A DNA stretch of 64,000 bases from the NCBI RefSeq assembly GCF_026341125.1, contig NZ_JAPEOR010000002.1, positions 2,776,001 through 2,840,000 on the forward strand. Reading direction: 5' to 3'. The stretch is from Streptomyces sp. NBC_01142. Its GTDB lineage: Bacteria > Actinomycetota > Actinomycetes > Streptomycetales > Streptomycetaceae. Every line of letters starts with the position of its first letter. Position 1 is the first letter of the stretch. Of the stretch, positions 5,159 to 56,037 are shown piece after piece. A program made the translations under genes and the position numbers. The notes beneath the pieces are model-generated. The model was not told the origin of the DNA. It saw nothing but the letters and a program-made list of their open reading frames with translations, and searched no databases.

Positions 5159-6387
5159 CACCACGGGCGCCTGGACGTACGGAACACCGCGTCCGCGACG
5201 GCCGCCGCGCCCGGCGCCTCCTCCTCGATACGGCCCAGCGCCGCGAGGCGGACCGCCGACTCGTCGCCCAGGTAGAGAGTCCCCAACTCCCGCACGTCCA
5301 GAGTCAGATCGGGCGACTGTGCCGATGGAGCACAGACCGCCCCGTCGGGCGAGGCGTCCAGCCGGAAGCGGCCGCCGGCCAGGCCCGCCGCGTCGTGGAG
5401 CTCGAGGACGAGGGTGGCGGACGTCGCGTACGTACGTGCTTCCAGAGCTCGTACGACATCCAGGATGCGGACCCACAGGAAGTCCGCCTGGGTCAGGATC
5501 CTGGCGGCGCGGGGGTCCGGGAGGAGGAGGGGGAGCAGATCGTCGGGGGCGCGGTAGCCGGACTTCACCGTGGTGATCCAGTCCACCGAGCAGACGTAGT
5601 GCCACAGCGCACGCTCGGCCGCGGGCGTCAGCGCGATCAAGTCGCGCACGGACGCGGTGTTCAGCGGCTGCTTGGCATCGCCCCACTTGTCGTCGGCCCG
5701 GTAGGCCATCAGGCCCTCGATCTCTCCGCCCGCCGCGCGGTAGACCGCGTAGAACGGCTCCGTCCAGGGTTGGCTCGGATACTGCGTCTCGCCGGTGTTG
5801 ACCTGCCACCAGAGCTCGTCACGGCTGACGACGCCGTGCTGCCGGGCGGCGAGGCGCTCGTGCAGCTCGGGTCCGAGCTTGCGTACGTCCGAGCCGTCGA
5901 CCAGCTCGATCCGGCCGCCGTCGCCCGGGCCCGACCAGCGCGGGTCGAGGCCGGCGCGCGGGACGTCGATGGCCCACTCGGTGGTCTGGGCGGCGGGGCC
6001 GAAGCCGTATCGCCCGTAGATGGGGTACTCGGCGGCTATCAGCGTGGACACGACGTCGCCGCGCTCCTTGGCCTCGGCCAGGTCGGCGGTCATCAGCGTA
6101 CTGAGCAGCCCGCGGCGGCGGTGCGTGGGCGAGACGGTGACATTGGAGACGGCGCTCGCGGTGAGCGCGGCGCCGCCCACCGTGGTGAGCTGCTGCGCGA
6201 AGGAACGGAACGTGGCCACGCACCGTCCGCTGTCGAAGGCGCCGCGGACCCGGGGAAGATCAATGTGCGCGAGCCGCTCGGCGGCCTCCTCGTCGGAGAC
6301 GACCGGCGGCCGCAGAAACCCGGTGGCCAGAGCCCGCAGCCAGTCGGGAAACTCGGACGCGGTGACGGTACGGGTTTCAACGCTCAT
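5143..6387 (-). CDS. Eis-like N-acetyltransferase
   Basis: This 414-residue protein has the Eis architecture: an N-terminal GNAT domain with the acetyl-CoA motif VSPTHRRRG at residues 85-93, a middle GNAT-like domain and a C-terminal sterol-carrier-like domain. In mycobacterial Eis a tyrosine is the general acid and the C-terminal phenylalanine carboxylate the base. Here IYGRYGFG (123-130) supplies the tyrosine and the protein ends in Phe (CPDVF). Mycobacterial Eis acetylates many amines including aminoglycosides; the substrate here is unknown. The last codons lie in the final unit of the 16-bp array. Confidence 0.88.
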
Positions 6388-43979: not shown

Positions 43980-44705
43980 TCAGGCCGCGAGGTCGTTCTC
44001 CCCGTTCCCGGCCCCCTCGGTCCTCGGCTCCGGGATGTCGAGCGTCTCGTGCCTTTCCGCATATCCGCCCGCCACCACCCGCCTTGACCGTACGAGGCGG
44101 CCGATCCGCCCCGACGCGGCGGCCGCCGACACCACCGGCGTCAGCAGGGCCAGCGCGAGGGGCGCGAGCAGCAGCGCCACCGCCGTACCGAGCGCGAATC
44201 CGCCCACGACGTCGGTCGGGTAGTGCACGCCCATGTAGACGCGGCAGAAGCCTTCGGCCAGCGCGAGCCCGATCGCGGCGAAGCCGAACTTCCGGTGCGC
44301 GACGAAGAGTCCGGCCCCGATCGCCATCGCCATCGTCGCGTGGTCGCTCACGAAGGAGTAGTCGGTCTTGCCGGCCACCAGGACCTCGAGCCCGTGATGG
44401 TCCAGGAACGGCCGTGGTCTCTCCACGAACCCGCGGATCGGGATGTTGACGAGCAGCGCGATCGCGGCACCCAGCGGCGCCCAGACCAGCCCGGCGACGG
44501 CCGCCACCGAGTCCTCGGTGGTCCCGCGCCGGCGCACGCTCCACCAGCACCAGAGCACCAGCAGCACCATCGCGAGCATGATTCCGTACTCGCCGATGAA
44601 CTCCATGGTGCGGTCGAGCCACGGGGGCGCGTCCTTGGCGAGACCGTTGATGTCATAGAGCAGGCTGACGTCGGGGTTCGACCCATCCGCTGCGAGTCCA
44701 GCCAT
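43980..44705 (-). CDS. PAP2-family membrane phosphatase
   Basis: This 241-residue membrane protein has about five helices and the acid phosphatase motifs RGFVERPRPF, FVSDHATMAMA and CRVYMGVHYPTDVV. In the last motif Cys replaces the usual Ser/Gly. It probably dephosphorylates undecaprenyl diphosphate or other lipid phosphates at the membrane. The ATG at 44705 has AAGGGG upstream; 20 codons upstream in frame lack similarity. The 245-bp stretch to the next gene holds only GGTCAGTGCGG duplications. Confidence 0.85.
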   Translation of the reverse strand: MAGLAADGSNPDVSLLYDINGLAKDAPPWLDRTMEFIGEYGIMLAMVLLVLWCWWSVRRRGTTEDSVAAVAGLVWAPLGAAIALLVNIPIRGFVERPRPFLDHHGLEVLVAGKTDYSFVSDHATMAMAIGAGLFVAHRKFGFAAIGLALAEGFCRVYMGVHYPTDVVGGFALGTAVALLLAPLALALLTPVVSAAAASGRIGRLVRSRRVVAGGYAERHETLDIPEPRTEGAGNGENDLAA

Positions 44706-44950
44706 CTGCTGCCCCTTGCCTTGTTGCCTGGCGCGGCACACTTCCGTGTGCGCCGCCTCTACCAACCCCCGTGGTCAGTGCGGTGTCTGCTGCATGGTCA
44801 GTGCGGCTGTCCCTGTCCAGGGAACGGCCTATTCCCCGCGTACGTTCCACTCTCCACCGAATGATCACGATGACGTTATCGAAGAGTGACACATCGTCGC
44901 AGCTCAGAGGCTTGGCGCAGCGGAGAGTTCCGGCCATCGCCGACGCCCTG

Positions 44951-45970
44951 TCAGGCTTCCGGTCGGGCGGTGGGCAACGCCTTCGCGCCATCCTTGGTGA
45001 CCCGCGTCGCACCGAAGTAGTCCGGGGTGTCGATCTTGTCGAAGCGGATCACGGCACCAGTGTACGGAGCGTTGATCATGTACCCGCCGCCGACGTAGAG
45101 ACCGACGTGCCGGATCTCCCGCGAGTTGGTGAGGTCGTCCGAGAAGAAGACCAGATCGCCCGGGAGCAGCTCGTCGCGGGAGGGATGCTTGCCCGCGTTG
45201 TACTGGTCGTTCGCGACACGCGGCAGCTCGATCCCCACGGTGCGGTACGCGGCCTGGGTCAGCCCGGAACAGTCGAACCGCCCGCCCTGCTCGGGCGTTC
45301 CGTTGCCGCCCCACAGATACTTCGTACCGAGCCTCTGCTGCGCGAAGTAGATGGCCCCGGCGGCCTGCCGCGACGGCTCGACCCGGCCGACGGGCTTCGC
45401 GAAGCTCTTCTCCAGGGTGCGGATGACCTTCACATAGTTCTTCGTCTCCCGGTACGGAGGCACGCCGCCGTACTTGATGACGGCGTACGCGCCCGCGTTG
45501 TACGCGGCGAGCATGTTGTCGGTGGGGTCGCCGGGCGCCTTCTTGACGTATCCGGCCAGTTCACAGTCGTACGAGGCGGCGGACGGAATCGCGTCGGCCG
45601 GGTCCCATACGTCACGGTCACCGTCCTTGTCCCCGTCGACGCCGTGCGTGGCCCAGGTGCCGGGGATGAACTGCGCGATGCCCTGAGCGGCGGCGGGGCT
45701 CTGGGCCTTCGGGTTCCAGCCGCTCTCCTGGTAGAGCTGTGCGGCGAGCAGCGCGGGGTTGATGGCCGGGCAGAGATTGCCCCACTTCTGTACGAGCGGC
45801 TGATAGAGCGCCGGTACGGCACCCTTCACCAGACCGACCGCTCGTCCGCCGCCTCCGCTCGCTCCGCCGATCAGCCCCGCGGCCGCGGAGTAGGTCCCGA
45901 CGACGAGCAGCGCGACGAAGCTCAGGCAGAGCCCGAAGCAGGCTCCCCCGACGAGCCACGCCTTACGCAC
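44951..45970 (-). CDS. Bifunctional lytic transglycosylase/NlpC-P60 endopeptidase (VirB1-like)
   Basis: This 339-residue exported cell-wall hydrolase has a signal anchor (9-30), an SLT domain with Glu82 (YQESGWNPKAQ) and a C-terminal NlpC/P60 domain with Cys234 (FDCSGLTQ) and His288 (RHVGLYVG). In the third catalytic position the usual His reads Asn (MINAP). It cuts both glycan strands and peptides. Enzymes of this architecture accompany type IV secretion and conjugation loci, and the T4SS-like genes start 2.4 kb away. A DasR-type site lies 150 bp upstream. Confidence 0.9.
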   Translation of the reverse strand: MRKAWLVGGACFGLCLSFVALLVVGTYSAAAGLIGGASGGGGRAVGLVKGAVPALYQPLVQKWGNLCPAINPALLAAQLYQESGWNPKAQSPAAAQGIAQFIPGTWATHGVDGDKDGDRDVWDPADAIPSAASYDCELAGYVKKAPGDPTDNMLAAYNAGAYAVIKYGGVPPYRETKNYVKVIRTLEKSFAKPVGRVEPSRQAAGAIYFAQQRLGTKYLWGGNGTPEQGGRFDCSGLTQAAYRTVGIELPRVANDQYNAGKHPSRDELLPGDLVFFSDDLTNSREIRHVGLYVGGGYMINAPYTGAVIRFDKIDTPDYFGATRVTKDGAKALPTARPEA

Positions 45971-46120
45971 CGTCAGCCACCCTTCGCCTCAAGGCAGTCC
46001 ACCGTCAGACGTCAGACAGTGTAGGTGCGGGGCGGCGGGTTCAGGGGGTGGACGAGAGGGCGGACAAGGGGCGGACGAGGGGGCGGGGGCGCATCCGGCC
46101 CGAGAACGGACCCCCCGTCA

Positions 46121-46136
46121 AGTGGTCTGGACCAGG
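46121..46136. promoter_or_regulatory. Candidate DasR-responsive element (dre)
   Basis: AGTGGTCTGGACCAGG matches the DasR consensus ACTGGTCTAGACCAGT at 13 of 16 positions and keeps the TGGTC/GACCA dyad. It lies between the divergent cell-wall hydrolase and the 54-residue membrane protein genes. DasR senses glucosamine-6-phosphate. Confidence 0.5.
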
Positions 46137-46232
46137 CATGACTACTGTGTGTCACGCAGCCAGGAAGGCTGAGGCGAGAACCCCACCGGCGACCACGGTG
46201 GGGCAAGCAACACAGCAACACAGGAGAAGCAC

Positions 46233-46397
46233 GTGAAGAACCTGGCGAACACAGCCGGCGCGGAGAGCACACAAAACGGGGAGCGCAAGGCGTCACGCCG
46301 AAACGGCGACGCCGGAGGTACGGCGGCGACAGTGACGTTCATCGCACTCATCGCCATTGCCGTGGCTCTGCTCGGATACATGGTGACCCTGGCCTGA
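46233..46397 (+). CDS. Small single-helix membrane protein, 54 aa
   Basis: A GTG at 46233 with AGGAGAAG seven bases upstream encodes 54 residues: a polar basic N-terminus (MKNLANTAGAESTQNGERKA) and one membrane helix (VTFIALIAIAVALLGYMVTL). It is divergent from the transglycosylase gene. A CCCCACCG/CGGTGGGG hairpin (46181-46203) lies in its 5' leader and a large terminator follows. Function unknown; it may belong to the secretion-like locus. Confidence 0.7.
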   Translation: MKNLANTAGAESTQNGERKASRRNGDAGGTAATVTFIALIAIAVALLGYMVTLA

Positions 46398-46409
46398 CAA
46401 GCGGCTGTC

Positions 46410-46485
46410 GGGCAGGCGGCCACCCGACCCGGCCGAGCCCGGGGCCGAAATCCCCGGCCCGCTCGAACCGTCCGGCCGCCTGCCC
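46410..46485. terminator. Large two-stem terminator
   Basis: GGGCAGGCGGCC (46410-46421) is complementary to GGCCGCCTGCCC (46474-46485), with an inner CCGGGG/CCCCGG stem. It separates the 54-residue gene from the convergent reductase. Confidence 0.8.
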
Positions 46486-46514
46486 TGCCACAACGACCCA
46501 CCTCATGGGGACCG

Positions 46515-47459
46515 CTACGGCTTGCGCCCCACGGCGCCGCCCATCGCGACCTCCTCCGGCTCGGCCGCATCCACAGGACGCACCGCCTTGAGCAGCTCCA
46601 CCAGGCTGGAGAAACTGTCCTCCGCGTGTCCGGCGTCCAGCCCTCGCCGGGCAAGCGCCGTGACCGCAGCCGGGATCGCCGTGTCGACGCCCGCGTCGGC
46701 CGCTGTACGAACCACGTGCTCCATGCTCGCGAGACCCATCGCCAGCCGGTCCACGTCCCCACGGTGGTCACCCGCGTCGATGCGCTCGGCATAGAGGTCC
46801 AGGAAGCTCCCGATCCCGCCGAGCGTGCTATTGGCGTACGGCAGGATGTCCGCCGCCGTCAGGCCATGCGCCTGCGCCATGGCGATCGCCTGCCAGTAAC
46901 TCACCATGGACGTCCAGAACATGGCCATGCTGAGCTGGTAGAAGAGCGCGGCGAGCCCAGGATCCTCGCCCTTGTGGTCCGTACCGGTCAGCGCCTCCAG
47001 AGTCGTGCGGTGCGCGTCGAAGACCTCGCGCGGGCCGCTGTAGACGGTCGATGCGCCGGAGGTCCCGATCATGTACGGCGCGGCCATCACGCCACCCGTG
47101 AGCTGTACGGCTCCGCGCTCGGCGGCCCAGCGTGCCGCCGCCCTCGCCTTTTCGGGGGTGTCCGAGCTGAGATTGACCAGGACCCGGCCGGCCAGCACCT
47201 GCGGGTCGACGGAGCCGAGGATCGCGTACATCGCGTCGTAGTCCGTCAGGCTCAGCACCACCAGCTCGTGGGCGGCAAGCGCCTCTTCGATGCTGTCGGC
47301 CCGCACCGCACCGCGCGCCACGAGCGCGTCGGCACGACTCGCCGTGCGGTTCCAGACCGTGACGCCGTGCCCCCGGTCCAGGAACGCGTTCACCATGGCC
47401 TGCCCCATCGGCCCGAGCCCGATGACGGTCACCGACGGTTGGCTCACGTTGCTGCTCAT
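46515..47459 (-). CDS. NAD(P)-dependent oxidoreductase, imine-reductase/6PGDH-like
   Basis: This 314-residue protein has an N-terminal Rossmann fold (VTVIGLGPMGQAMVNAF) and an all-alpha C-terminal domain (SMAMFWTSMVSYWQAIAMAQ), the layout of beta-hydroxyacid dehydrogenases and imine reductases. It is divergent from a TetR gene with a set of shared operators, so it is probably the induced target. The substrate is unknown. The pair interrupts the secretion-like locus. Confidence 0.87.
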   Translation of the reverse strand: MSSNVSQPSVTVIGLGPMGQAMVNAFLDRGHGVTVWNRTASRADALVARGAVRADSIEEALAAHELVVLSLTDYDAMYAILGSVDPQVLAGRVLVNLSSDTPEKARAAARWAAERGAVQLTGGVMAAPYMIGTSGASTVYSGPREVFDAHRTTLEALTGTDHKGEDPGLAALFYQLSMAMFWTSMVSYWQAIAMAQAHGLTAADILPYANSTLGGIGSFLDLYAERIDAGDHRGDVDRLAMGLASMEHVVRTAADAGVDTAIPAAVTALARRGLDAGHAEDSFSSLVELLKAVRPVDAAEPEEVAMGGAVGRKP

Positions 47460-47477
47460 GGGATCCCCTCGATTGAC

Positions 47478-47534
47478 TAGAACGTTCTATCTAGAGCGAA
47501 GAAAACGTAACACAGCACTAGAACGAACGCTCTA
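47478..47534. promoter_or_regulatory. Operator array for the TetR regulator
   Basis: The half-site TAGARCG occurs five times in alternating orientation: TAGAACGTTCTA (47478-47489, a perfect palindrome), TAGAGCG (47492-47498) and TAGAACGAACGCTCTA (47519-47534). The array covers both divergent promoters. Confidence 0.7.
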
Positions 47535-47558
47535 CTCACTGGGTATTAGGATCGCGGC

Positions 47559-48143
47559 ATGCCGACCGACACCCCACGCCCGGGCACCCGCGACCGGATC
47601 GTCATCGCCGCCGCCCGCCTGCTGCAGCGCCAGGGGTACGTCGGCACAGGCATCAAACAGATCGCCAAGGAGGCGGAGGCCACGCTCGGCTCCGTCTACC
47701 ACTTCTTCCCCGGCGGGAAGGAGGCCGTCGCGGTCGCGGCCATCACCTACAGCGGCAAGGAATTCGCGGCGACGTTGCACACGGCACTGGAGCTCGAGGA
47801 CGACCCGGCCCGCGCCATCGAGGCCTGCGCCGGCGACCTCGCCCAGGGGCTGCGCGCATCGGGCTGGACCGACGGCTGCCCGGTCACGGCCGCGGCCCTG
47901 GAGACGCTCGGCACCGACTCCGAGATCCAGCAGGCCTGCGCCCGGGCACTGCAGAGCTGGCAGGACATGGTGTCCGACAAACTGCTCCGCTGCGGATTCC
48001 CCGCGGCCGTCGCGCGCGACCTGGCCTGCACGGTGATCAGCACCCTGGAGGGCGCGGAGGTGACCGCCCAGGTCAACCGCAGCGAGGAACCTCTCCTCCT
48101 GGCGGGCCGTCACCTGGCGCGCCTGGTGGGCTCGTACCGCTGA
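47559..48143 (+). CDS. TetR-family regulator of the divergent reductase
   Basis: This 194-residue protein has an N-terminal TetR helix-turn-helix (RIVIAAARLLQRQGYVGTGI, SVYHFFPGGKEAVA) and a C-terminal domain with a pair of Cys-containing segments (DGCPVTAAALETLG), like LmrA/YxaF-type regulators. It is divergent from the imine-reductase-like gene, and the TAGARCG array lies between them, so it most likely represses both. The ligand may be the reductase substrate. Confidence 0.9.
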   Translation: MPTDTPRPGTRDRIVIAAARLLQRQGYVGTGIKQIAKEAEATLGSVYHFFPGGKEAVAVAAITYSGKEFAATLHTALELEDDPARAIEACAGDLAQGLRASGWTDGCPVTAAALETLGTDSEIQQACARALQSWQDMVSDKLLRCGFPAAVARDLACTVISTLEGAEVTAQVNRSEEPLLLAGRHLARLVGSYR

Positions 48144-48413
48144 ACGGCGGGGCGTCATGCATACGGCGGCCCCAAAGGTGGAACAACGACAGTCATTGCC
48201 CGGAGTCACCCTGCGTGATACACAGAGTTACCATAGGCATACCCGTACTGGTCCGGTCCGCGCCGTCGCAGGTCAGAACGGTGGGGTCGGTCAAACGTGC
48301 GGAGATCGGGTAAAGAGACCCGCCGAGTCGGCATACGCGGGCGATTTCATCAGCGAAGATAGAACGACAGCCCATGCCGAGGGGCAAGGGCACTGAACAA
48401 CCCAACAGGGGCG

Positions 48414-48731
48414 GTGAGTTACATGATCCTGGCAGCCGAAAAGGGCGACATCACCACCATCATCGGCGGAATCGCCCCGAACTGGGGGCCGTTCGGGAGC
48501 CTGGGGAACGAGGCTCGAGTGATGATCGAGGTCGTGATGGCCATTGCCATCCTCCTCTGCCTCGGCATCGCGATCTGGGGCGCGGCCAAACAGCGCATCG
48601 GAGCAACGGCCCTGCGTGACACGTTCAGCGCAGAGCAGGGAAAGGGCCTGATCGTCGCCGGACTGACCGGCGTCTTCATCATCGGCTCACTGGGGACCTT
48701 GTTCACCATCGTGTACGGGATGGCCGTCTAG
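48414..48731 (+). CDS. Two-helix pilin-like membrane protein of the T4SS-like locus
   Basis: The protein has 105 residues from the GTG at 48414; an ATG at 48423 is the alternative. Two membrane helices, IEVVMAIAILLCLGIAIWGA and GKGLIVAGLTGVFIIGSLGT, are separated by a short basic loop, the topology of VirB2-type pilins or a small channel subunit. It is the first gene of the secretion-like run. The 270 bp upstream contain no gene, only a weak promoter-like TTGCCC/TACACA pair. Sequence identity to VirB2 is not evident, so the role is inferred from topology and place. Confidence 0.65.
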   Translation: MSYMILAAEKGDITTIIGGIAPNWGPFGSLGNEARVMIEVVMAIAILLCLGIAIWGAAKQRIGATALRDTFSAEQGKGLIVAGLTGVFIIGSLGTLFTIVYGMAV

Positions 48732-48893
48732 CCGCCCGCCAGTCCTCTCCGGGCGCGCCCGGCCCACCCTTTGAGGTTGCGTTTCCCTGATGTCGAGTCA
48801 CCACACCGCGCCCGCGAGGCAAGCAGCACGACTACCGTCGTACTACGCGGCGTACTACGCGGAACTGCAACGGGTTGAGGGGGCGTACGCGAG

Positions 48894-49751
48894 ATGAGCC
48901 TCGGTGACGAACACGGCTTCGGAAGCGAGTCGGGCGACCGCCGTTCGGACGACAGCTTCGGCGGCTCGGGCCAGACCCGCACCCGCCTGCCCGGCGGTGG
49001 CGACACCGACGTCTACGGCGGAGCGCGCCGCCCCGTGCGGAACTCGCGCTCCCTCATCACGGTGGTGGGCGTCGTGGTGCTGCTGATCGCGGCTATCGCA
49101 TTCGCGAACCAGGGCGGGGGCGAGGAGGGCCCGTCGGGGGACGGGGCGAAGGGGACGGGGTCGCAACCGACGGCGGCGACGGGGGTGAAACCGGTGACGG
49201 GGAAGAACGGGCAGATTCCGACGGGGTACGCAAAGGATGAGCAGGGGGCGCAGAGCGCGGCGGCGAACTACGCGGTGGCGCTCGGTTCTGACGGCATGTT
49301 CAAGTCCGCGACCAGACGCGACATCGTGCAGACCGTTCACGATCCCGCCGTCACCGACGGCCTCCTGAGTGATCTGGACAAGGCCTACTCCGCAGACTTT
49401 CTGGCAAACGTCGGCCTGACCGGAGACGGCAGCGCGCCCGCCGGCCTGACCTTCGTTTCTCGTACCGTGCCCGTCGGCACGAAGACGACAAGTTTCGCCG
49501 GTGACAAGGCAACCGTCGAGGTCTGGTGCACCGGCCTCGTGGGGCTCGCGGGCCCGAAGTCCACCAAGCCCGTGACCGAGACCTGGTTCACGATCACCCA
49601 GAACCTGAAGTGGGTCGGCAACGACTGGAAGATCGGGTCGTCGAGCCAGAAGGAAGGCCCGACACCGGTCAACGGCGACAACCGCGCCTCCTCCGCAGAC
49701 GAGATCGCGGGAGCTGTCCAGGGATACGGAGGCTTCACCTATGCCCGCTAG
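48894..49751 (+). CDS. Bitopic VirB8-like protein of the T4SS-like locus
   Basis: The protein has 285 residues: a cytoplasmic acidic and basic N-terminus, one membrane helix at 54-71 and a ~200-residue extracellular part. The last third (KATVEVWCTGLVGLAG ... TETWFTITQNLKWVGNDWKI) reads like the NTF2-like fold of VirB8/TcpC. The ATG at 48894 has GAGGGGGCG upstream. It overlaps the next gene by 11 bp. The linker after the helix shows reduced codon order (Gly/Thr rich). Assignment to VirB8 rests on topology and context. Confidence 0.65.
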   Translation: MSLGDEHGFGSESGDRRSDDSFGGSGQTRTRLPGGGDTDVYGGARRPVRNSRSLITVVGVVVLLIAAIAFANQGGGEEGPSGDGAKGTGSQPTAATGVKPVTGKNGQIPTGYAKDEQGAQSAAANYAVALGSDGMFKSATRRDIVQTVHDPAVTDGLLSDLDKAYSADFLANVGLTGDGSAPAGLTFVSRTVPVGTKTTSFAGDKATVEVWCTGLVGLAGPKSTKPVTETWFTITQNLKWVGNDWKIGSSSQKEGPTPVNGDNRASSADEIAGAVQGYGGFTYAR

Positions 49752-51066
49752 TCGGCACCCCCGTGCCCTCGCGATCACCGCCCTGGCCAGTCTTCCGACG
49801 TCAATCGTCCTGTTGGCATCGCGGTCCTCAGCGGCACCGACCCCTCCCCCGACGCCCAGCCCCAGCAAGAGCGACAACCCCTGCGACCTCATCGTCGGGC
49901 TCGCCAAGGACTACTGCGAGGACGGCGAAAAGGCCGGCGGCGCCCCCCGCTCCGGCCCCCCCGAGCCCGCCGACGCCCTCGACCCCCTCGCCTCCCTCGC
50001 CCGTGGCTGTGCCGACGCCGCCGCCTGGACCGTCGACACGCTCTCCAAGGCCGTGAAGTCCACCGCCACCGTCGACTTCACCAACACCGCCTTCCTCTCC
50101 CAGTACGCCATCGTCTTCGCCGCCGCCACCATCCTCACCCTCGTCCTCTGGCTCCTCGCCGTCACCAAGCGCGCCATCCGCGGCGTCCCCCTCACCACCG
50201 CCATCTCCGAAGCCATCGGCTTCCTCTGGCTCACCGTTCTCGCCTCCGCCTTCACCCCGCTGATCCTCTTCACCCTCGTCTCCGTGACCGACGGCGTCAC
50301 CGAGGTCATCGCCGGCGGCACCAGCGGCCAGACGGAGATGTTCTTCGGGAACTTCTCCGGCGCCCTGAAGAAGGGCACCGACATCGGCGGCGGGCCGATC
50401 ATGCTGATCGTCGTCTCGCTCGTCACGATCCTCGCCGCCGGCGTGCTCTACCTCGAGCTGTTCATCCGCGCCGTGCTCCTCTACGTCGGCGCCCTCCTCG
50501 GCGTCGTCGTCTACTCCGGACTCGTCGACAAGAACATGTGGGGGCACGTCCGCCGCTGGGCCGGGATCATGATCGCGATCATCCTGGTCAAGCCGGTGAT
50601 CGTGATCGTCCTCGGACTCGCCGGCGCGCTCTCCGCCGGCAAGGGCCCCGACTCCTTCTCCGCGGTCGTCTCCGGCCTGGCGATCATCCTGCTCGCCATC
50701 TTCGCCTCCGCGATGATCTACCGTTTCGTCCCCGGCTTCGGCGACGAGATCGCCAACTCCCGCAACAACCGCCTCCAGAACGGCGCCGAGAACGCCGCGG
50801 CCGCCGTCATCAGCTCCCCCGCCGCCCTCGTCTCCCAAGGCATCAAGACCCACAGCAGCCGCGGAAACCAAGGCGGCGGCGGCAACAACAGCGGCAGCGG
50901 CCGCCCCTCCAACCCCCTCAGCGGAGGCGTCGCCGCGCACAGCAACCGCACCCCCGGAGGGGGCGGCGGAACTGCCCCCTCCGCCGCACCCCCACCGCGT
51001 AGCAGCAGTCCCACCAGCGGCACCCCGCACAGCAACCGCAAGAGCACAGGAGGTGGAGGGCGTTGA
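49741..51066 (+). CDS. Polytopic VirB6/TrbL-like protein
   Basis: The protein has 441 residues: signal peptide (10-32), a Pro/Ser stretch, then about six membrane helices (122-141, 157-180, 220-240, 242-262, 275-297, 306-328) and a ~100-residue Gly/Ser/Asn-rich tail with repeated SNR motifs. This is the layout of VirB6/TrbL inner-membrane channel proteins. It overlaps the previous gene by 11 bp and the next by 4 bp, showing a tightly coupled operon. Confidence 0.75.
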   Translation: MPASRHPRALAITALASLPTSIVLLASRSSAAPTPPPTPSPSKSDNPCDLIVGLAKDYCEDGEKAGGAPRSGPPEPADALDPLASLARGCADAAAWTVDTLSKAVKSTATVDFTNTAFLSQYAIVFAAATILTLVLWLLAVTKRAIRGVPLTTAISEAIGFLWLTVLASAFTPLILFTLVSVTDGVTEVIAGGTSGQTEMFFGNFSGALKKGTDIGGGPIMLIVVSLVTILAAGVLYLELFIRAVLLYVGALLGVVVYSGLVDKNMWGHVRRWAGIMIAIILVKPVIVIVLGLAGALSAGKGPDSFSAVVSGLAIILLAIFASAMIYRFVPGFGDEIANSRNNRLQNGAENAAAAVISSPAALVSQGIKTHSSRGNQGGGGNNSGSGRPSNPLSGGVAAHSNRTPGGGGGTAPSAAPPPRSSSPTSGTPHSNRKSTGGGGR

Positions 51067-52616
51067 CCACCCAGTCCCAACCGATCACGCCCCGCCGTAC
51101 GTATCTCATCGGCCGTGCCCGGCCGAACGCGATCGTCGGCAAGAACCGCGAGACCGGCGAGATCGCGCTGATCATCGCCGGCGCGTTCCTCGGCATGATG
51201 AGCGGGCTGCTGGTCCCCGTCCTGTCCCTGCGGATCGTGCTGCTGATGGGCTTCCCGCTCCTCGCGCTCGCCGCCGTGTACGTCCCGTTCAAACACCGCA
51301 CCTTCTACAAGTGGTACGAGATCAACCGCAGCTACAAGCGCACCCTGCGCAGCGGCACCCTCTACCGCTCCCCGGCCGCCGAAGCCGGCACCCGGTTCGA
51401 CGGCCGGGAGATCGAGGTCGGCCCGCCCCCCGGCATCGGCCGGATCAACTGGCTCGCCGCGCCCTTCGGCCCGGACGAGATCGCCGTCCTGCTGCACGCC
51501 GACCGCCGCACCGTCACCGCCGCCATCGAGATCGAGGGCCCGGGCGTCGGACTGCGCGACAGCGAGGACCAGGAAGCCCTGGTGGACCGTTTCGGCACCC
51601 TGCTGAAGCATGTGGCCAACGGCGACGGCTTCGTGACACGCCTTCAGATGCTCGCCCGTACGCTCCCCGCCGACCCCGACGCACACGCCAAGGACGTCGC
51701 CCAGCGCGGCGACCAGCAGTCGCCCGGCTGGCTGCGCGAGTCGTACGACCAGCTTCAGTCGATGGTCTCCACCTCCAGCGAGCAGCACCGCGCCTACCTC
51801 GTCGCCTGTATGCACTACAGCCGCGAACTGGCGGCCGAAGCCCATGCCATGGCCCGCGCCGCCCGCCACACCGCCGGCACCAAGAAGCTCGACAAGGACG
51901 CGGGCCTCGCCGTCGTCATGGCGCGCGAACTCACCGACATCTGCGCCCGCCTCGCCGAGGCCGACATCCGCGTCCGCCAGCCGCTGGGCCAGGGCAGGCT
52001 CGCCTCCCTCGTCCACTCGATGTACGACCCCGACCACCCCATCGACCACATCCAGGCGATGACGAAACGGAACACCTGGCCCGCCGAGCTGGACGCCATG
52101 GAGGCGACGTACCTCCAGGCGAAAACCCGCGAGTCCTCCACCCGCGCGCCCTGGTGCCACTCCACCGCCTGGGTGAAGGAGTGGCCGATGACCCCGGTCG
52201 GCGTCAACTTCCTGGCACCGCTGCTCGTTCACACCCCCGACGTGATCCGTACGGTCGCGGTCTGCATGGACCTGGAGCCCACCGAGGTCGCCATCGAGAG
52301 GATGCTCACCGAGAAGACCAACGACGAGGCGGACGCGAGCCGCGCCGCCAAGATGAACCGGACGATCGACCCGCGCGACATCGCCGCGCACGGACGGCTC
52401 GACCAGCGGGGTGAAGATCTCGCGAGCGGTGCGGCGGGGGTCAACCTTGTCGGGTACATCACTGTGTCGGCGCGTTCGCCCGAAGCCCTGGCCCGGGACA
52501 AGCGCACGATCAGGGCCTCGGCCGGCAAGTCCTATCTGAAGCTGGAGTGGTGCGACCGCGAGCACCACCGTGCCTTTGTGAACACCTTGCCGTTCGCGAC
52601 CGGCATCCGACGCTGA
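51063..52616 (+). CDS. SCO6880/PrgI-type protein (VirB3 plus VirB4 N-domain)
   Basis: This 517-residue protein has two membrane helices near the N-terminus (about 34-50 and 55-75), as in VirB3/PrgI. A long cytoplasmic part resembles the N-terminal, non-ATPase domain of VirB4 (AIEIEGPGVGLRDSEDQEAL ... NLVGYITVSARSPEALARDK). It matches the actinobacterial SCO6880 family. There is no P-loop; the ATPase part is the next gene, 18 bp away. TTG start at 51063, overlapping the previous stop codon, with GGAGGTGGAGGG upstream. Confidence 0.8.
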   Translation: MTTQSQPITPRRTYLIGRARPNAIVGKNRETGEIALIIAGAFLGMMSGLLVPVLSLRIVLLMGFPLLALAAVYVPFKHRTFYKWYEINRSYKRTLRSGTLYRSPAAEAGTRFDGREIEVGPPPGIGRINWLAAPFGPDEIAVLLHADRRTVTAAIEIEGPGVGLRDSEDQEALVDRFGTLLKHVANGDGFVTRLQMLARTLPADPDAHAKDVAQRGDQQSPGWLRESYDQLQSMVSTSSEQHRAYLVACMHYSRELAAEAHAMARAARHTAGTKKLDKDAGLAVVMARELTDICARLAEADIRVRQPLGQGRLASLVHSMYDPDHPIDHIQAMTKRNTWPAELDAMEATYLQAKTRESSTRAPWCHSTAWVKEWPMTPVGVNFLAPLLVHTPDVIRTVAVCMDLEPTEVAIERMLTEKTNDEADASRAAKMNRTIDPRDIAAHGRLDQRGEDLASGAAGVNLVGYITVSARSPEALARDKRTIRASAGKSYLKLEWCDREHHRAFVNTLPFATGIRR

Positions 52617-52634
52617 ACGAGAGGGCAGTCCGCC

Positions 52635-54050
52635 ATGCGAGATCCGCTGTCCGTCTTCACGGATGCCTTCACCTCCTTCCTCTTCGGGAAGGTGGAGACG
52701 ACGCGCCTTCCCGTCCGTACGTCCACGGGGCAGGCGCAGGCCGTCTACCTCCCCACCGCCGCGCCGGGCCTCGGCGACTCGGGCGTCATCATCGGCCGCG
52801 AGGTGTACAGCGGCAAGGGCTACATCTACGACCCGTTCCAGCTGTACGGCCAGCAGCTCCCGGCCCCCCACTGGCTGGTGCTCGGCGAGTCGGGCAACGG
52901 CAAGTCGGCGCTGGAGAAGACGTACGTCCTCCGGCAGTTGCGCTTCAGGGACCGCCAGGTGGTGGTGCTGGACGCGCAGGGCGAGGACGGCGTCGGCGAG
53001 TGGAACCTCATCGCGCAGGAGCTGGGAATAACCCCCATCCGGCTCGACCCCATGACGGCGCTGGACGGCGGCATCCGACTCAACCCACTGGACCCGTCGA
53101 TCACCACGACCGGCCAGCTGGCTCTGCTCCGTACGATCATCGAGGTCGCGATGGGGCACGGGCTCGACGAGCGGTCCGGCTTCGCGCTGAAGGTGGCGCA
53201 CGCGTACGTCAACGAGACGATCCTCGACCGGCAGCCGGTGCTCACCGACATCGTGGACCAGCTGCGGCACCCGGAGCCGGAGTCCGCCGAGGCGATGAAC
53301 GTCGACATCGACGACGTACGGGCGTGGGGCCTGGATGTCGCGCTGGTGCTGGACCGGCTGGTCGACGGTGACCTGCGGGGCATGTTCGACGGTCCGACGA
53401 CGGTCGGGATCGACCTGGACGCGCCGCTGATCGTCTTCGACCTGTCGCACATCGACCGGAACTCCATCGCGATGCCGATCCTGATGGCGATCGTGGGGGT
53501 GTGGCTGGAGCACACCTGGATCCGTCCCGACCGAAAGAAACGCATCTTCCTGGTGGAAGAGGCATGGCACATCATCAACAGCCCCTTCGTCGCCCAGCTC
53601 TTCCAGCGGCTGCTGAAGTTCGGCCGCCGGCTGGGTCTGTCGTTCGTCGCGGTCGTCCACCACCTGAGCGATGTGGTCGACGGGGCGGCGGCGCGGGAAG
53701 CTGCGGCGATCCTGAAAATGGCGTCGACACGGACGATCTACGCACAGAAGGCGGACGAGGCCCGGGCGACGGGACGGGTGCTCGGCCTGCCGCGCTGGGC
53801 TGTGGAGATCATCCCTACGCTCACCCCCGGCATCGCGGTCTGGGACGTCAACGGCAACGTCCAAGTGGTCAAACACCTGGTGACGGAGGCGGAGCGACCA
53901 CTGGTCTTCACCGACCGGGCGATGACGGAGTCGTCCGGACCTGCGCTGCCCGAGGACGTAGCGGCCGCGGAGTGGGAGGCGGAGGAGCGCGCGGCCCTGA
54001 TCGAGCGGCAGAAGATGGACGCGGAGTCCTCCGAGTCGACGGTGGCGTGA
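52635..54050 (+). CDS. VirB4-type secretion ATPase
   Basis: This 471-residue cytoplasmic ATPase has Walker A GESGNGKS (84-91), Walker B RIFLVEEAW (about 303-311) and the VirB4/TraC-type segments RLNPLDPS, FDLSHIDRN and MASTRTIYAQKADEA. It powers assembly or substrate transfer in type IV machines. It lacks the VirB4 N-terminal domain, which is encoded by the upstream gene, so VirB4 is split into two polypeptides. The coupling-protein-like gene starts 1 bp after its stop codon. Confidence 0.9.
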   Translation: MRDPLSVFTDAFTSFLFGKVETTRLPVRTSTGQAQAVYLPTAAPGLGDSGVIIGREVYSGKGYIYDPFQLYGQQLPAPHWLVLGESGNGKSALEKTYVLRQLRFRDRQVVVLDAQGEDGVGEWNLIAQELGITPIRLDPMTALDGGIRLNPLDPSITTTGQLALLRTIIEVAMGHGLDERSGFALKVAHAYVNETILDRQPVLTDIVDQLRHPEPESAEAMNVDIDDVRAWGLDVALVLDRLVDGDLRGMFDGPTTVGIDLDAPLIVFDLSHIDRNSIAMPILMAIVGVWLEHTWIRPDRKKRIFLVEEAWHIINSPFVAQLFQRLLKFGRRLGLSFVAVVHHLSDVVDGAAAREAAAILKMASTRTIYAQKADEARATGRVLGLPRWAVEIIPTLTPGIAVWDVNGNVQVVKHLVTEAERPLVFTDRAMTESSGPALPEDVAAAEWEAEERAALIERQKMDAESSESTVA

Positions 54051-54051
54051 C

Positions 54052-56037
54052 ATGCGCGAACGTCACAACCGTCACGACCGCCGCCCTCAGCGGGACGACG
54101 AGCGCGGCATCCCTGACGGCCTGTTGGTGGGGCTGCTCGGCTTCGTACTCGGACTGACGCTGCTCGTCTGGACGGCCACGGGGCTGGCAGGCGTGCTGTC
54201 GCACGGCGCCTGGCCGGCGGGGGTCACGTTCGGCAACACGCCGCCCGCGATGCGCGCGCTCGCGTCCGAGCCCCACGACCTCGCGTCCGCCTGGCCGAAC
54301 ACACCCAAGGCAGAACTGTCGGGGTACGGGCTGTTCTGGGGCCTGGCCATCGGCGAGTTGATGGTCCTGGTGGTCCTCACGGTATTCGTCCTGGGCACCC
54401 TGGCACGCTGGCGCGCGGTCCGGGCCCGCGCCGGCGCCCATGTCCCAACCGAGGCCCGGGAGAGCCTGCACACGAAGCGGGAGAGCCTGCGTACGAAGAA
54501 GGGGGCGCCCGGCCGGAACCGCCGCGCCCCCGCCCGTCCGCGCACGGAGCAGCGGGCGGCCGAGTGGGACTTCCCCACCGCCCCCGAGCCCGGCACCACG
54601 GCCGACCGGGACGCAGCCACGGGCATGAGTGCGGGCGCGGGCGCGGACGGCGGGTACCGCTCAGAAGGACGCCGCCCCGGCCACCCACAGGACGCCGCCC
54701 CGGACCCGGCGCACACGGGTGACAGCCCCCGCCAACCCCGGACGGCCGACCACGGGGCGAGCGAGCGGGACCGCCACGACGCCTACGGGCCGAGCATCTC
54801 CGCAGGCCCCCACCCCCTCGGAGAGCCCCTCGCCGAACAGGGAGCGAGCGGGTGGGACCTGAACGACACCCACGGGTCCGTGCACCCCGCGGACCCGGCC
54901 CACCCCGGCCCGTACACCGCGCCCGCAGGCCACCCGCAGCTCGCCGACCGCGGAGCAGGGCGGGGCCTCCACAGCGCCCACGGCGCCCACAGACCCGCCA
55001 CCCACGGACCCGGCACCCACGCGGACTCCGCCACCGCAGGCCCCCACCCCCTCGCCGGACAAGGGGCGAGCGCGCGGGACCCCCTCGGCTCCCATCCCGC
55101 CGTCCCCGCCCCCCGCGCCCCCCGTGTCCTCTACGGCGACCCCGCCACCCGCCGCCCCGCCACCGTCCAGGCCGTCCTGGACGCCGAAGGACCCGCGCTC
55201 GTCGTCACCTCCGACCCCACGGTGTGGGCGGAGACCAAGGACGCGCGGGCCAAGCTCGGGCCCGTCCTCGTGTACGACCCCGGGCATCTGTGCGACACCC
55301 CCGCCCGCCTCCACTGGTCGCCCACCGCGCACTGCGAGGACCCCGCCAGGGCCCAGGAACGCGCCCACGCCCTCCTCGCGCCCGTACGGCCCCGCGCCCT
55401 CCTCGACGCCGCCATGGCGGACACGGCGGAAACACTCCTCCATTGCTGGCTGCACGCCGCGGCCGTGGACGGGCGTCCGTTCAAGCAGCTCCACCGCTGG
55501 GCGCAGGGCGGCAGTGCCCATGACGCCGTACGGATCCTCCGTACGCACCCCAAGGCCACCGCCGGACTCGCCGGGCTGCTCGAGTCCGCCCTCACCGCGC
55601 ACCCCGAACGCCGCGAAATCGCTCAGCAGTTGGTGGTCCGCGCGCTCTCCGCGCTCTCCTCGGTCCACATCCGTGAGGCGTGCACCCCGAACCGAACCGA
55701 TTCGCTCATCCTGGAATCATTCGTGAACGAAGGGGGCACGCTTTATGTGGTCGGTGAACCCATCGAGGACCCCAGGGCGCACCCCGGGGCGATGCCCCTG
55801 CTCACCGCACTCGCCTCAGACGTGGTCGAGCGCGGCCGCCGCATGGCCGCACGGTCATCCGACGGTCGCCTCGACCCACCAATGACGCTCGTCCTCGACG
55901 ACGTCGCGGCCGTGGCTCCCCTCCCCCGTCTCCCGGAGCTGCTGGCAACCGGTCAGGACCACGGCCTGCCGGCCCTCGTCCTGCTCCGTTCCGCGGAACA
56001 GGCGCGCGCCCGCTGGAGCGAGGCACTCAACCAGTAG
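54052..56037 (+). CDS. VirD4/TraG-like coupling protein lacking Walker A
   Basis: The protein has 661 residues: two membrane helices (24-44, 93-118), a ~200-residue Pro/His-rich linker with about four degenerate 35-residue repeats (TADHGASERD, LAEQGASGWD, LADRGAGRGL, LAGQGASARD) and a C-terminal TraG/VirD4-like domain. The Walker B region LVLDDVAAVAPLPRLPELL and following ATGQDHGLPALVLLRSAEQA match coupling proteins. Where GxxGxGKT is expected the sequence reads GDPATRRPATV, with no lysine. It is therefore probably an inactive or non-hydrolysing homologue. Confidence 0.75.
   Translation: MRERHNRHDRRPQRDDERGIPDGLLVGLLGFVLGLTLLVWTATGLAGVLSHGAWPAGVTFGNTPPAMRALASEPHDLASAWPNTPKAELSGYGLFWGLAIGELMVLVVLTVFVLGTLARWRAVRARAGAHVPTEARESLHTKRESLRTKKGAPGRNRRAPARPRTEQRAAEWDFPTAPEPGTTADRDAATGMSAGAGADGGYRSEGRRPGHPQDAAPDPAHTGDSPRQPRTADHGASERDRHDAYGPSISAGPHPLGEPLAEQGASGWDLNDTHGSVHPADPAHPGPYTAPAGHPQLADRGAGRGLHSAHGAHRPATHGPGTHADSATAGPHPLAGQGASARDPLGSHPAVPAPRAPRVLYGDPATRRPATVQAVLDAEGPALVVTSDPTVWAETKDARAKLGPVLVYDPGHLCDTPARLHWSPTAHCEDPARAQERAHALLAPVRPRALLDAAMADTAETLLHCWLHAAAVDGRPFKQLHRWAQGGSAHDAVRILRTHPKATAGLAGLLESALTAHPERREIAQQLVVRALSALSSVHIREACTPNRTDSLILESFVNEGGTLYVVGEPIEDPRAHPGAMPLLTALASDVVERGRRMAARSSDGRLDPPMTLVLDDVAAVAPLPRLPELLATGQDHGLPALVLLRSAEQARARWSEALNQ

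Follow-up and report, generated by a model that had tools for sequence, protein, structure and literature searches.

Six tightly packed plus-strand genes at positions 48414–56037 of a 64,000-nt stretch of Streptomyces sp. NBC_01142 (hereafter the window; G000:C2:2776001–2840000, within a 10.1-Mb genome) encode the parts of a machine related to type IV secretion systems (T4SSs). The run begins with CmdF (48414–48731, orthologue of SCO4131), a 105-aa protein with two main hydrophobic segments by hydropathy and a candidate VirB2-like subunit. It continues with CmdE (48894–49751, SCO4130), a single-pass membrane protein carrying an NTF2-like domain of VirB8 type (PF26526/DUF8175 in precomputed annotation); CmdD (49741–51066, SCO4129), a polytopic membrane protein that is VirB6/TrbL-like by position and hydropathy-based topology; CmdC (51063–52616, SCO4128), of the SCO6880 family (NF042935, E = 1.1e-52); CmdB (52635–54050, SCO4127), a VirB4-type ATPase (AAA_10, E = 8.9e-13) with the Walker A motif GESGNGKS and the Walker B region LVEEAW; and CmdA (54052–56037, SCO4126), which reads as a pseudo-ATPase derived from VirD4/TraG, with two N-terminal hydrophobic segments, a long linker and a degenerate nucleotide-binding domain. 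Neighbouring genes overlap by 11 and 4 bp, and the remaining gaps measure 162 bp (CmdF–CmdE), 18 bp (CmdC–CmdB) and 1 bp (CmdB–CmdA). Divergent from the operon, a gene at 44951–45970 on the minus strand encodes a VirB1-like wall hydrolase that joins a lytic transglycosylase (SLT) domain to an NlpC/P60 domain (SLT-NlpC). A preliminary description of this DNA had located all seven products correctly, together with the tight six-gene run and its two overlaps. Its remark that codon use matches the neighbours agrees with the G+C content at third codon positions (0.86–0.93 across the six cmd genes, resembling neighbouring genes), the sole measure taken, and its remark that no tRNA is present agrees with ARAGORN, which found none in the window. 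It had also counted SLT-NlpC as part of the set; the enzyme is a true long-standing neighbour, but it lies on the opposite strand, and two genes separate it from the operon here.

In order and type these genes match cmdF–cmdA (SCO4131–SCO4126) of Streptomyces coelicolor, an operon of identical gene content and arrangement (PMC2782261), and the region is the cmd operon of this genome; the assignment was made from gene order, protein types, the CmdB ATPase and the gene list of that paper rather than by comparing SCO sequences. The S. coelicolor counterpart named in the preliminary description corresponds to SCO4126–SCO4131, and its suggestion of another role, possibly developmental, is borne out by deletions in three Streptomyces species that impair sporulation (PMC2782261). 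Its view that the block is functionally open does not hold, because phenotypes have been in print since 2009. In that study, aerial growth, septation and chromosome segregation all proved to depend on the cmd genes for their normal course, and its authors already proposed a type IV-like channel. Knockout of SCO4126 (cmdA) looked wild type; the other single knockouts gave light grey, poorly sporulating colonies. Blue pigment was overproduced in the cmdB, cmdD and cmdE knockouts, with little or none in cmdA, cmdC and cmdF. Mutants also show delayed aerial growth, branching defects, early actII-orf4 transcription and 6–8% anucleate spores. CmdB is located at the membrane, its RNA increases at aerial growth, and CmdB site mutants fail to complement, for which the authors allow possible instability of the mutant proteins (PMC2782261). 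A transposon screen names cmdBCDEF (PMC6585502), although insertions in these genes may have polar effects, cmdA being the final gene of the operon. Mutants of tgdA, a lytic transglycosylase, have the same antibiotic phenotype, for which the screen's authors point to the envelope (PMC6585502).

The individual proteins support descent from a conjugation-type machine to differing degrees. CmdB matches the VirB4-like structure 4ag5 in the Protein Data Bank (PDB; E = 1.7e-6), and both GESGNGKS and the Glu-Glu pair of LVEEAW are present in 44/44 relatives; judged by these motifs, CmdB is a VirB4 ATPase with both Walker A and Walker B. In its structure model CmdE folds like VirB8, being bitopic with an NTF2-like domain, and so passed the structural test that the preliminary description had proposed. 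Its C-terminal domain probably lies outside the cell, because SCO4130 of S. coelicolor is listed as a glycoprotein (PMC6593405). CmdC has two hydrophobic segments at its N terminus by hydropathy and may combine VirB3/PrgI-like N-terminal segments with a VirB4-N-like body; neither CmdC nor CmdF gave a Pfam match at E ≤ 1. For CmdD, a plasmid counterpart (L108:5634–7451) matches TrbL_4 below the cut-off (E = 1.9e-4), the sole match of a CmdD profile against the PDB was a designed protein (E = 0.81), and the structure model was unusable (mean predicted confidence, pLDDT, 44.7). CmdF ranks with the operon's best-conserved products, with identities of 85–99% (median 94) in 43/44 genus loci and 70–91% in the 12 loci outside the genus where it was found (families f2 and f3 and genome G328), and a ratio of nonsynonymous to synonymous substitution rates (dN/dS) of 0–0.04 in four comparisons. 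The SLT-NlpC gene, whose predicted domains make it a VirB1-like wall hydrolase linked to the operon, occurs in 60 of 61 genus genomes including our own; among 41 of these 60 that were compared, it shares a contig with CmdB in 37, always at a distance of 5.6–30.7 kb (37/37). It stands directly beside CmdF, in divergent orientation, in 10 of 12 f3 loci as well as in f2 and G328.

CmdA departs from a working coupling protein. Its C terminus gives a weak TraG-D_C match below the cut-off (E = 0.0036), and it aligns with a VirD4 encoded on contig C8 of the same genome at 31% identity over 287 residues. In that alignment the APPREGKT of VirD4 stands opposite GDPATRRP in CmdA, the DE and Q of VirD4 stand opposite DD and R, and the C-terminal strand of the nucleotide-binding domain is missing from CmdA. 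The three VirD4 positions concerned are the Walker A lysine, the catalytic glutamate and the sensor glutamine. Each of them is found in 0 of 41 readable CmdA proteins, and all three are kept in 15/15 comparison VirD4s. The alignment held 45 CmdA sequences (the window and 44 relatives), four of them unreadable at these positions: the CmdA of L058 is naturally 260 aa long and lacks the domain, with no Ns in the sequence; Ns lie nearby in L054; and L086 and L087 are shortened or broken. A strict P-loop pattern, GK[ST], missed most intact VirD4s, which read GKG, and the lysine column of the alignment was used instead; P-loop-like strings away from the aligned position occur in 2/120 and 4/45 CmdA proteins. 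The f2 orthologue is intermediate, reading GPARSGKA with D and R, so that only the lysine is kept. On this sequence evidence CmdA is a pseudo-ATPase derived from VirD4/TraG, and the job of the machine probably differs from DNA transfer. Loss of the catalytic residues can also explain why the cmdA knockout is silent when cmdB–cmdF matter (PMC2782261). The VirB8, VirB4 and VirD4 homologies named in the preliminary description are thus upheld by the CmdE fold, the AAA_10 and 4ag5 matches of CmdB and the CmdA–VirD4 alignment, but its notion of a full T4SS is not, because the 'VirD4' of the set lacks the catalytic residues. By its VirB4, VirB8 and VirB1 features cmd is a Gram-positive T4SS (MPF-FA/FATA) in kind, with candidate VirB6-, VirB3- and VirB2-like parts and without an active VirD4.

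The operon belongs to the core genome. Of 199 genus genomes, counting the one studied here, 195 have CmdB at E ≤ 1e-264; among the remaining four, G172 and G174 give matches that are strong though their E-values are weaker, and G124 and G136 give none of note. Among 44 genus loci fetched for having sufficient flank, CmdE, CmdD, CmdC, CmdB and CmdA were matched in 44/44 and CmdF in 43/44, a recurrence in sampled relatives that argues against a chance assembly. (CmdE is listed ahead of CmdF in L063 and L069 through our first-start reading-frame rule; tblastn places CmdF first in L063.) Where the main contig is long (31 genomes), the operon sits at 0.40–0.59 of its length in 29, and none of 207 plasmid records with a CmdB relative carries one above 60% identity. 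In a class-wide sample of 197 genomes, G328 alone outside the order has an orthologue-like match (78%). A CmdB tree recovers a single cmd clade (support 100/99) that branches as G328,(f2,(f3,Streptomyces)). The cmd operon is vertically inherited, and with its shared gene order and content it is orthologous across these genomes.

A decaying integrative and conjugative element (ICE) left on the chromosome would account for the degenerate CmdA and for the lack of mobility genes, which the preliminary description had also reported. The TrwC relaxase profile matches contigs C9 and C3 only and nothing on the contig of the window; on that contig the Phage_integrase profile has its closest matches 37 kb ahead of the window and 115 kb beyond it. 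These two profiles define the search, and relaxases and integrases of other families and att repeats fall outside it. By these two profiles the locus has no relaxase and integrase close by and is not an ICE. A population survey of 11 Streptomyces strains describes a 'defective ICE' near mid-chromosome in every strain (PMC9513070), which may be the cmd operon misread by the ICE finder. Decay is contradicted by purifying selection on CmdB, CmdC and CmdF (dN/dS 0–0.15), the published deletion phenotype (PMC2782261), near-universal presence in the genus sample and the vertical tree, and we find it scarcely credible. Any mobile-element reading was likewise rejected, given near-universal CmdB, the absence of a close plasmid relative, the vertical tree and the lack of a TrwC or nearby Phage_integrase match.

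More distant relatives of the machine do reside on plasmids. The actinobacterial plasmids L109 (pMDJK44.2), L108, L026 and L027, and contig C8, share the cmd order of wall hydrolase, F, E, D, SCO6880 protein and VirB4, with CmdB relatives at 40–50% identity; the hydrolase is of SLT/C40 type in L108 and L109 and of M23 type in L026 and L027. A VirD4 follows further downstream in these sets and, unlike CmdA, keeps Lys, Glu and Gln in the three tested (L014, which is C8, L026 and L027); in L026, L108 and L109 it is separated from VirB4 by small additional genes. PLSDB types L109 as MOBF and L026, L027 and L108 as non-mobilizable. Contig C8 (L014–L015, 65.8 kb) is itself a second, plasmid-like T4SS with an intact VirD4 in the same genome, and this VirD4 is 94% identical to that of a Streptomyces sp. 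NBC_00015 plasmid. Kinship with VirD4-carrying plasmid machines of the same gene order (L108 and L109), and the precedent of Helicobacter ComB, a VirD4-less uptake system (PMC12857230), could suggest that cmd moves DNA between hyphae or takes it up with a motor supplied in trans. We judge this very improbable: transfer of an SLP2-derived plasmid showed no significant change when the S. coelicolor cluster was deleted (PMC2782261; data not shown there), no TrwC relaxase accompanies the operon on its contig, and the developmental phenotype is strong.

Four linear Streptomyces plasmids (L111–L114) resemble cmd in having an SLT/C40 enzyme, genes of small and of polytopic size, a CmdB relative at 33–35% identity and no VirD4 annotated in the stretch. 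They differ from it in carrying an FtsK/SpoIIIE protein beside the cluster (4/4; the FtsK match was confirmed for one), and L112 is typed MOBF. These plasmids appear to be of SLP2-like kind, as judged without the SLP2 sequence itself in the comparison, and possibly represent a hybrid conjugation system. Because the plasmid relatives carry either VirD4 or FtsK/SpoIIIE, the channel seems able to pair with different DNA motors or with none. An FtsK-type motor may thus go with this kind of channel. On the chromosome, the Cmd machine could pass or clear DNA at the septa of sporulating hyphae, powered by host FtsK, or by CmdB itself, in the place of VirD4. This pump for chromosome segregation is what the authors of PMC2782261 themselves proposed, and the anucleate spores are in its favour. 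Delayed aerial growth, abnormal branching and early actII-orf4 transcription, however, are not septation defects (PMC2782261), the VirD4-type DNA loader has been lost, and the antibiotic phenotype shared with tgdA mutants directs attention to the envelope (PMC6585502); we consider a segregation pump unlikely.

Loss of the coupling protein is not confined to Streptomyces. Two further families are informative here: f3, which we take to be Catenulispora-like, and f17, presumably Frankia. BLASTP at E ≤ 1e-3 found no CmdA or VirD4 in 12/12 f3 loci, with 3.3–9.0 kb downstream covered. In f17, 19 genomes of the class sample gave a CmdB match, and the loci of 18 of them were fetched. They share with cmd the order F-like, E, D, C, B, and no VirD4 was found in 18/18 stretches (1.1–9.1 kb downstream covered); a CmdF-like gene is present in 17, a CmdE match in 16 and SLT-NlpC within the stretch in 5. 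TraG-D_C has no match genome-wide in two (G351 and G391) of five f17 genomes searched. The f17 loci differ from cmd in forming a separate clade, in an extra upstream gene and in the Walker A motif of the CmdB relative, which reads GxxGSRKS in three aligned sequences. The extra gene, upstream of the CmdF-like gene, is conserved and was matched in 17/18 loci, with a length of 632–695 aa in L037, L038 and L041. An approximately unbiased (AU) test rejects one common clade of f17 and cmd (p-AU = 8e-8) and, with it, a single domestication for Frankia and cmd; the grouping was tested after the tree had been seen, and long branches are flagged in that tree. Since the f17 clade is separate, parsimony implies at least two losses or inactivations of VirD4, with three motor-state changes in all on the CmdB tree when f2 is scored as pseudo despite its lysine and G328, whose contig ends 34 bases after CmdB, is left out. 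One VirB4 is reported as conserved in all three Frankia strains studied and lies inside 0.035–0.096 Mb in CcI3 (PMC2266912); the f17 gene of G383, at 40 kb, falls inside the region where that paper places the CcI3 gene.

From these distributions we draw a wider proposal, held tentatively and at somewhat under even odds. It envisages at least two chromosomal domestications in mycelial, spore-forming actinobacteria (one in Streptomyces and Catenulispora-like relatives, one in Frankia), each time with VirD4 lost or killed and the VirB4-driven channel and wall hydrolase kept. The Streptomyces outcome would be a BldD-controlled developmental machine that does not serve DNA transfer, and the family as a whole would be motor-swappable (VirD4, FtsK/SpoIIIE or none).

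The upstream region suggests possible developmental control. BldD represses sporulation genes during vegetative growth, and its consensus is TNAC(N5)GTNA (PMC4151990). A predicted box of this form, TCACCCTGCGTGA (48206–48218, plus strand), lies 208 bp before CmdF. Of 44 upstream regions of 300 bp (the window and 43 relatives), 39 contain such a box, about 155–266 bp before CmdF with a varying centre, against a chance expectation of 0.135 per kb, 0.04 per 300 bp or about 1.8 of 44. It is overlapped by a conserved element, GTGATACACAGAGTNACC (48215–48232, plus strand), whose 14-base core, the first 14 bases, occurs once in the genome. Vegetative repression by BldD fits the rise in cmdB RNA at aerial growth (PMC2782261), and BldD may control the operon through this predicted box. 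MtrA may instead be the regulator of the conserved upstream element. A leader close to ACTACCCAACAGGGGCGGTGA (window about 48390–48413) stands directly before CmdF, and its conservation extends to most genomes of the genus sample. A search pattern for a WhiG-type promoter upstream of CmdF gave no match.

We therefore favour, with a probability of roughly 0.6, the reading that cmd is a Gram-positive T4SS of conjugation type that was domesticated for a part in hyphal development, is powered by CmdB and lacks a working coupling protein. The homology of its parts, its vertical inheritance, the loss of catalytic residues in CmdA and the conserved BldD box are the observations on which this reading is built. 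Domestication would have occurred on the chromosome of an ancestor of Streptomyces and its order-level relatives, with the membrane machine kept (pilin-like CmdF, VirB8 CmdE, VirB6-like CmdD, VirB3/VirB4-N-like CmdC, the VirB4 ATPase CmdB and the nearby VirB1-like hydrolase), the working VirD4 motor lost and CmdA left as a dispensable pseudo-ATPase. At the onset of aerial growth, BldD repression would be lifted and the machine switched on; CmdB would spend ATP driving a membrane complex of CmdC, CmdD, CmdE and CmdF, and CmdF or a Sec-exported cargo may then be moved or assembled through wall opened by the SLT-NlpC enzyme. The machine would act in the envelope of aerial hyphae while they grow or form septa, as with Gram-negative VirD4-less T4SSs. 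An envelope role is preferred over DNA pumping because aerial growth is delayed and misbranched in the mutants (PMC2782261) and because the antibiotic effect resembles that of the transglycosylase mutant (PMC6585502). A dedicated secretion system, in which CmdB directly loads cytoplasmic or Sec-exported proteins or effectors, would have precedents in the Gram-negative Ptl and Brucella VirB systems, which secrete proteins without a coupling protein (PMC12857230). No candidate cargo gene was noticed in the locus, where no systematic search for one was made, and we rate such secretion as quite unlikely.

Several observations weigh against domestication for hyphal development as we have framed it. 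The 6–8% of anucleate spores could mean a direct role in DNA handling (PMC2782261). The degenerate CmdA domain is under purifying selection (dN/dS 0.17–0.25 in four comparisons), and some role has therefore been kept, as in a conserved pseudo-enzyme and not a free-running relic. The top Foldseek matches of CmdE are to a chloroplast NTF2-like domain, and the assignments of CmdD and CmdF are weak. The BldD box is absent from 5/44 genus regions, present in only 3/10 f3 regions, present in f2 and absent from G328; in the Frankia-like loci it precedes the CmdF-like gene in 0/17 and the extra upstream gene in 5/17.

Among known systems, Ptl, Brucella VirB, Bartonella Trw and ComB resemble cmd in being VirB machinery without a coupling protein; unlike cmd, they are diderm systems (PMC12857230). 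The section of that review on VirD4-less systems names no Gram-positive case, and no word beginning 'cmd' occurs in its available text. Nor were VirB4, VirD4 or SCO6880 found in the text of a polymorphic-toxin review, or 'cmd' or SCO4126 in that of a Streptomyces development review (PMC4255298). The operon, its phenotype and the idea of a type IV-like channel have been known since 2009 (PMC2782261), but the accessible text of that account makes no mention of CmdA as a degenerate VirD4, CmdE as a VirB8, related VirD4-less loci or a BldD box, and no description of CmdA as inactive was found in the open-access literature naming SCO4126–SCO4131, as far as its text is available. As far as that literature shows, what is new is that CmdA is a pseudo-ATPase and is absent from relatives, that CmdE has a VirB8 fold, that a VirD4-less Frankia clade stands apart from cmd, and that a BldD box is conserved upstream. 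With its near-universal presence in the Streptomyces sample, a published phenotype and a coupling protein without catalytic residues, cmd is well suited to the study of how a T4SS can be turned to use in cell development. The unexplained finding that cmdB–cmdF matter and cmdA does not becomes a concrete mechanistic question, and the conserved BldD box offers a direct regulatory test.

Two further observations concern single loci and neighbours. In L054, the CmdE frame lies on the opposite strand (about 5214–5894) within an otherwise normal cmd operon, which may be an assembly fault because the locus holds Ns. In the window, a gene for a PAP2 protein (undecaprenyl-diphosphatase-like; 43980–44765, minus strand) adjoins SLT-NlpC; such a gene occurs in 10 of the 16 genus loci whose stretch covers SLT-NlpC, and it possibly belongs to the same envelope neighbourhood.

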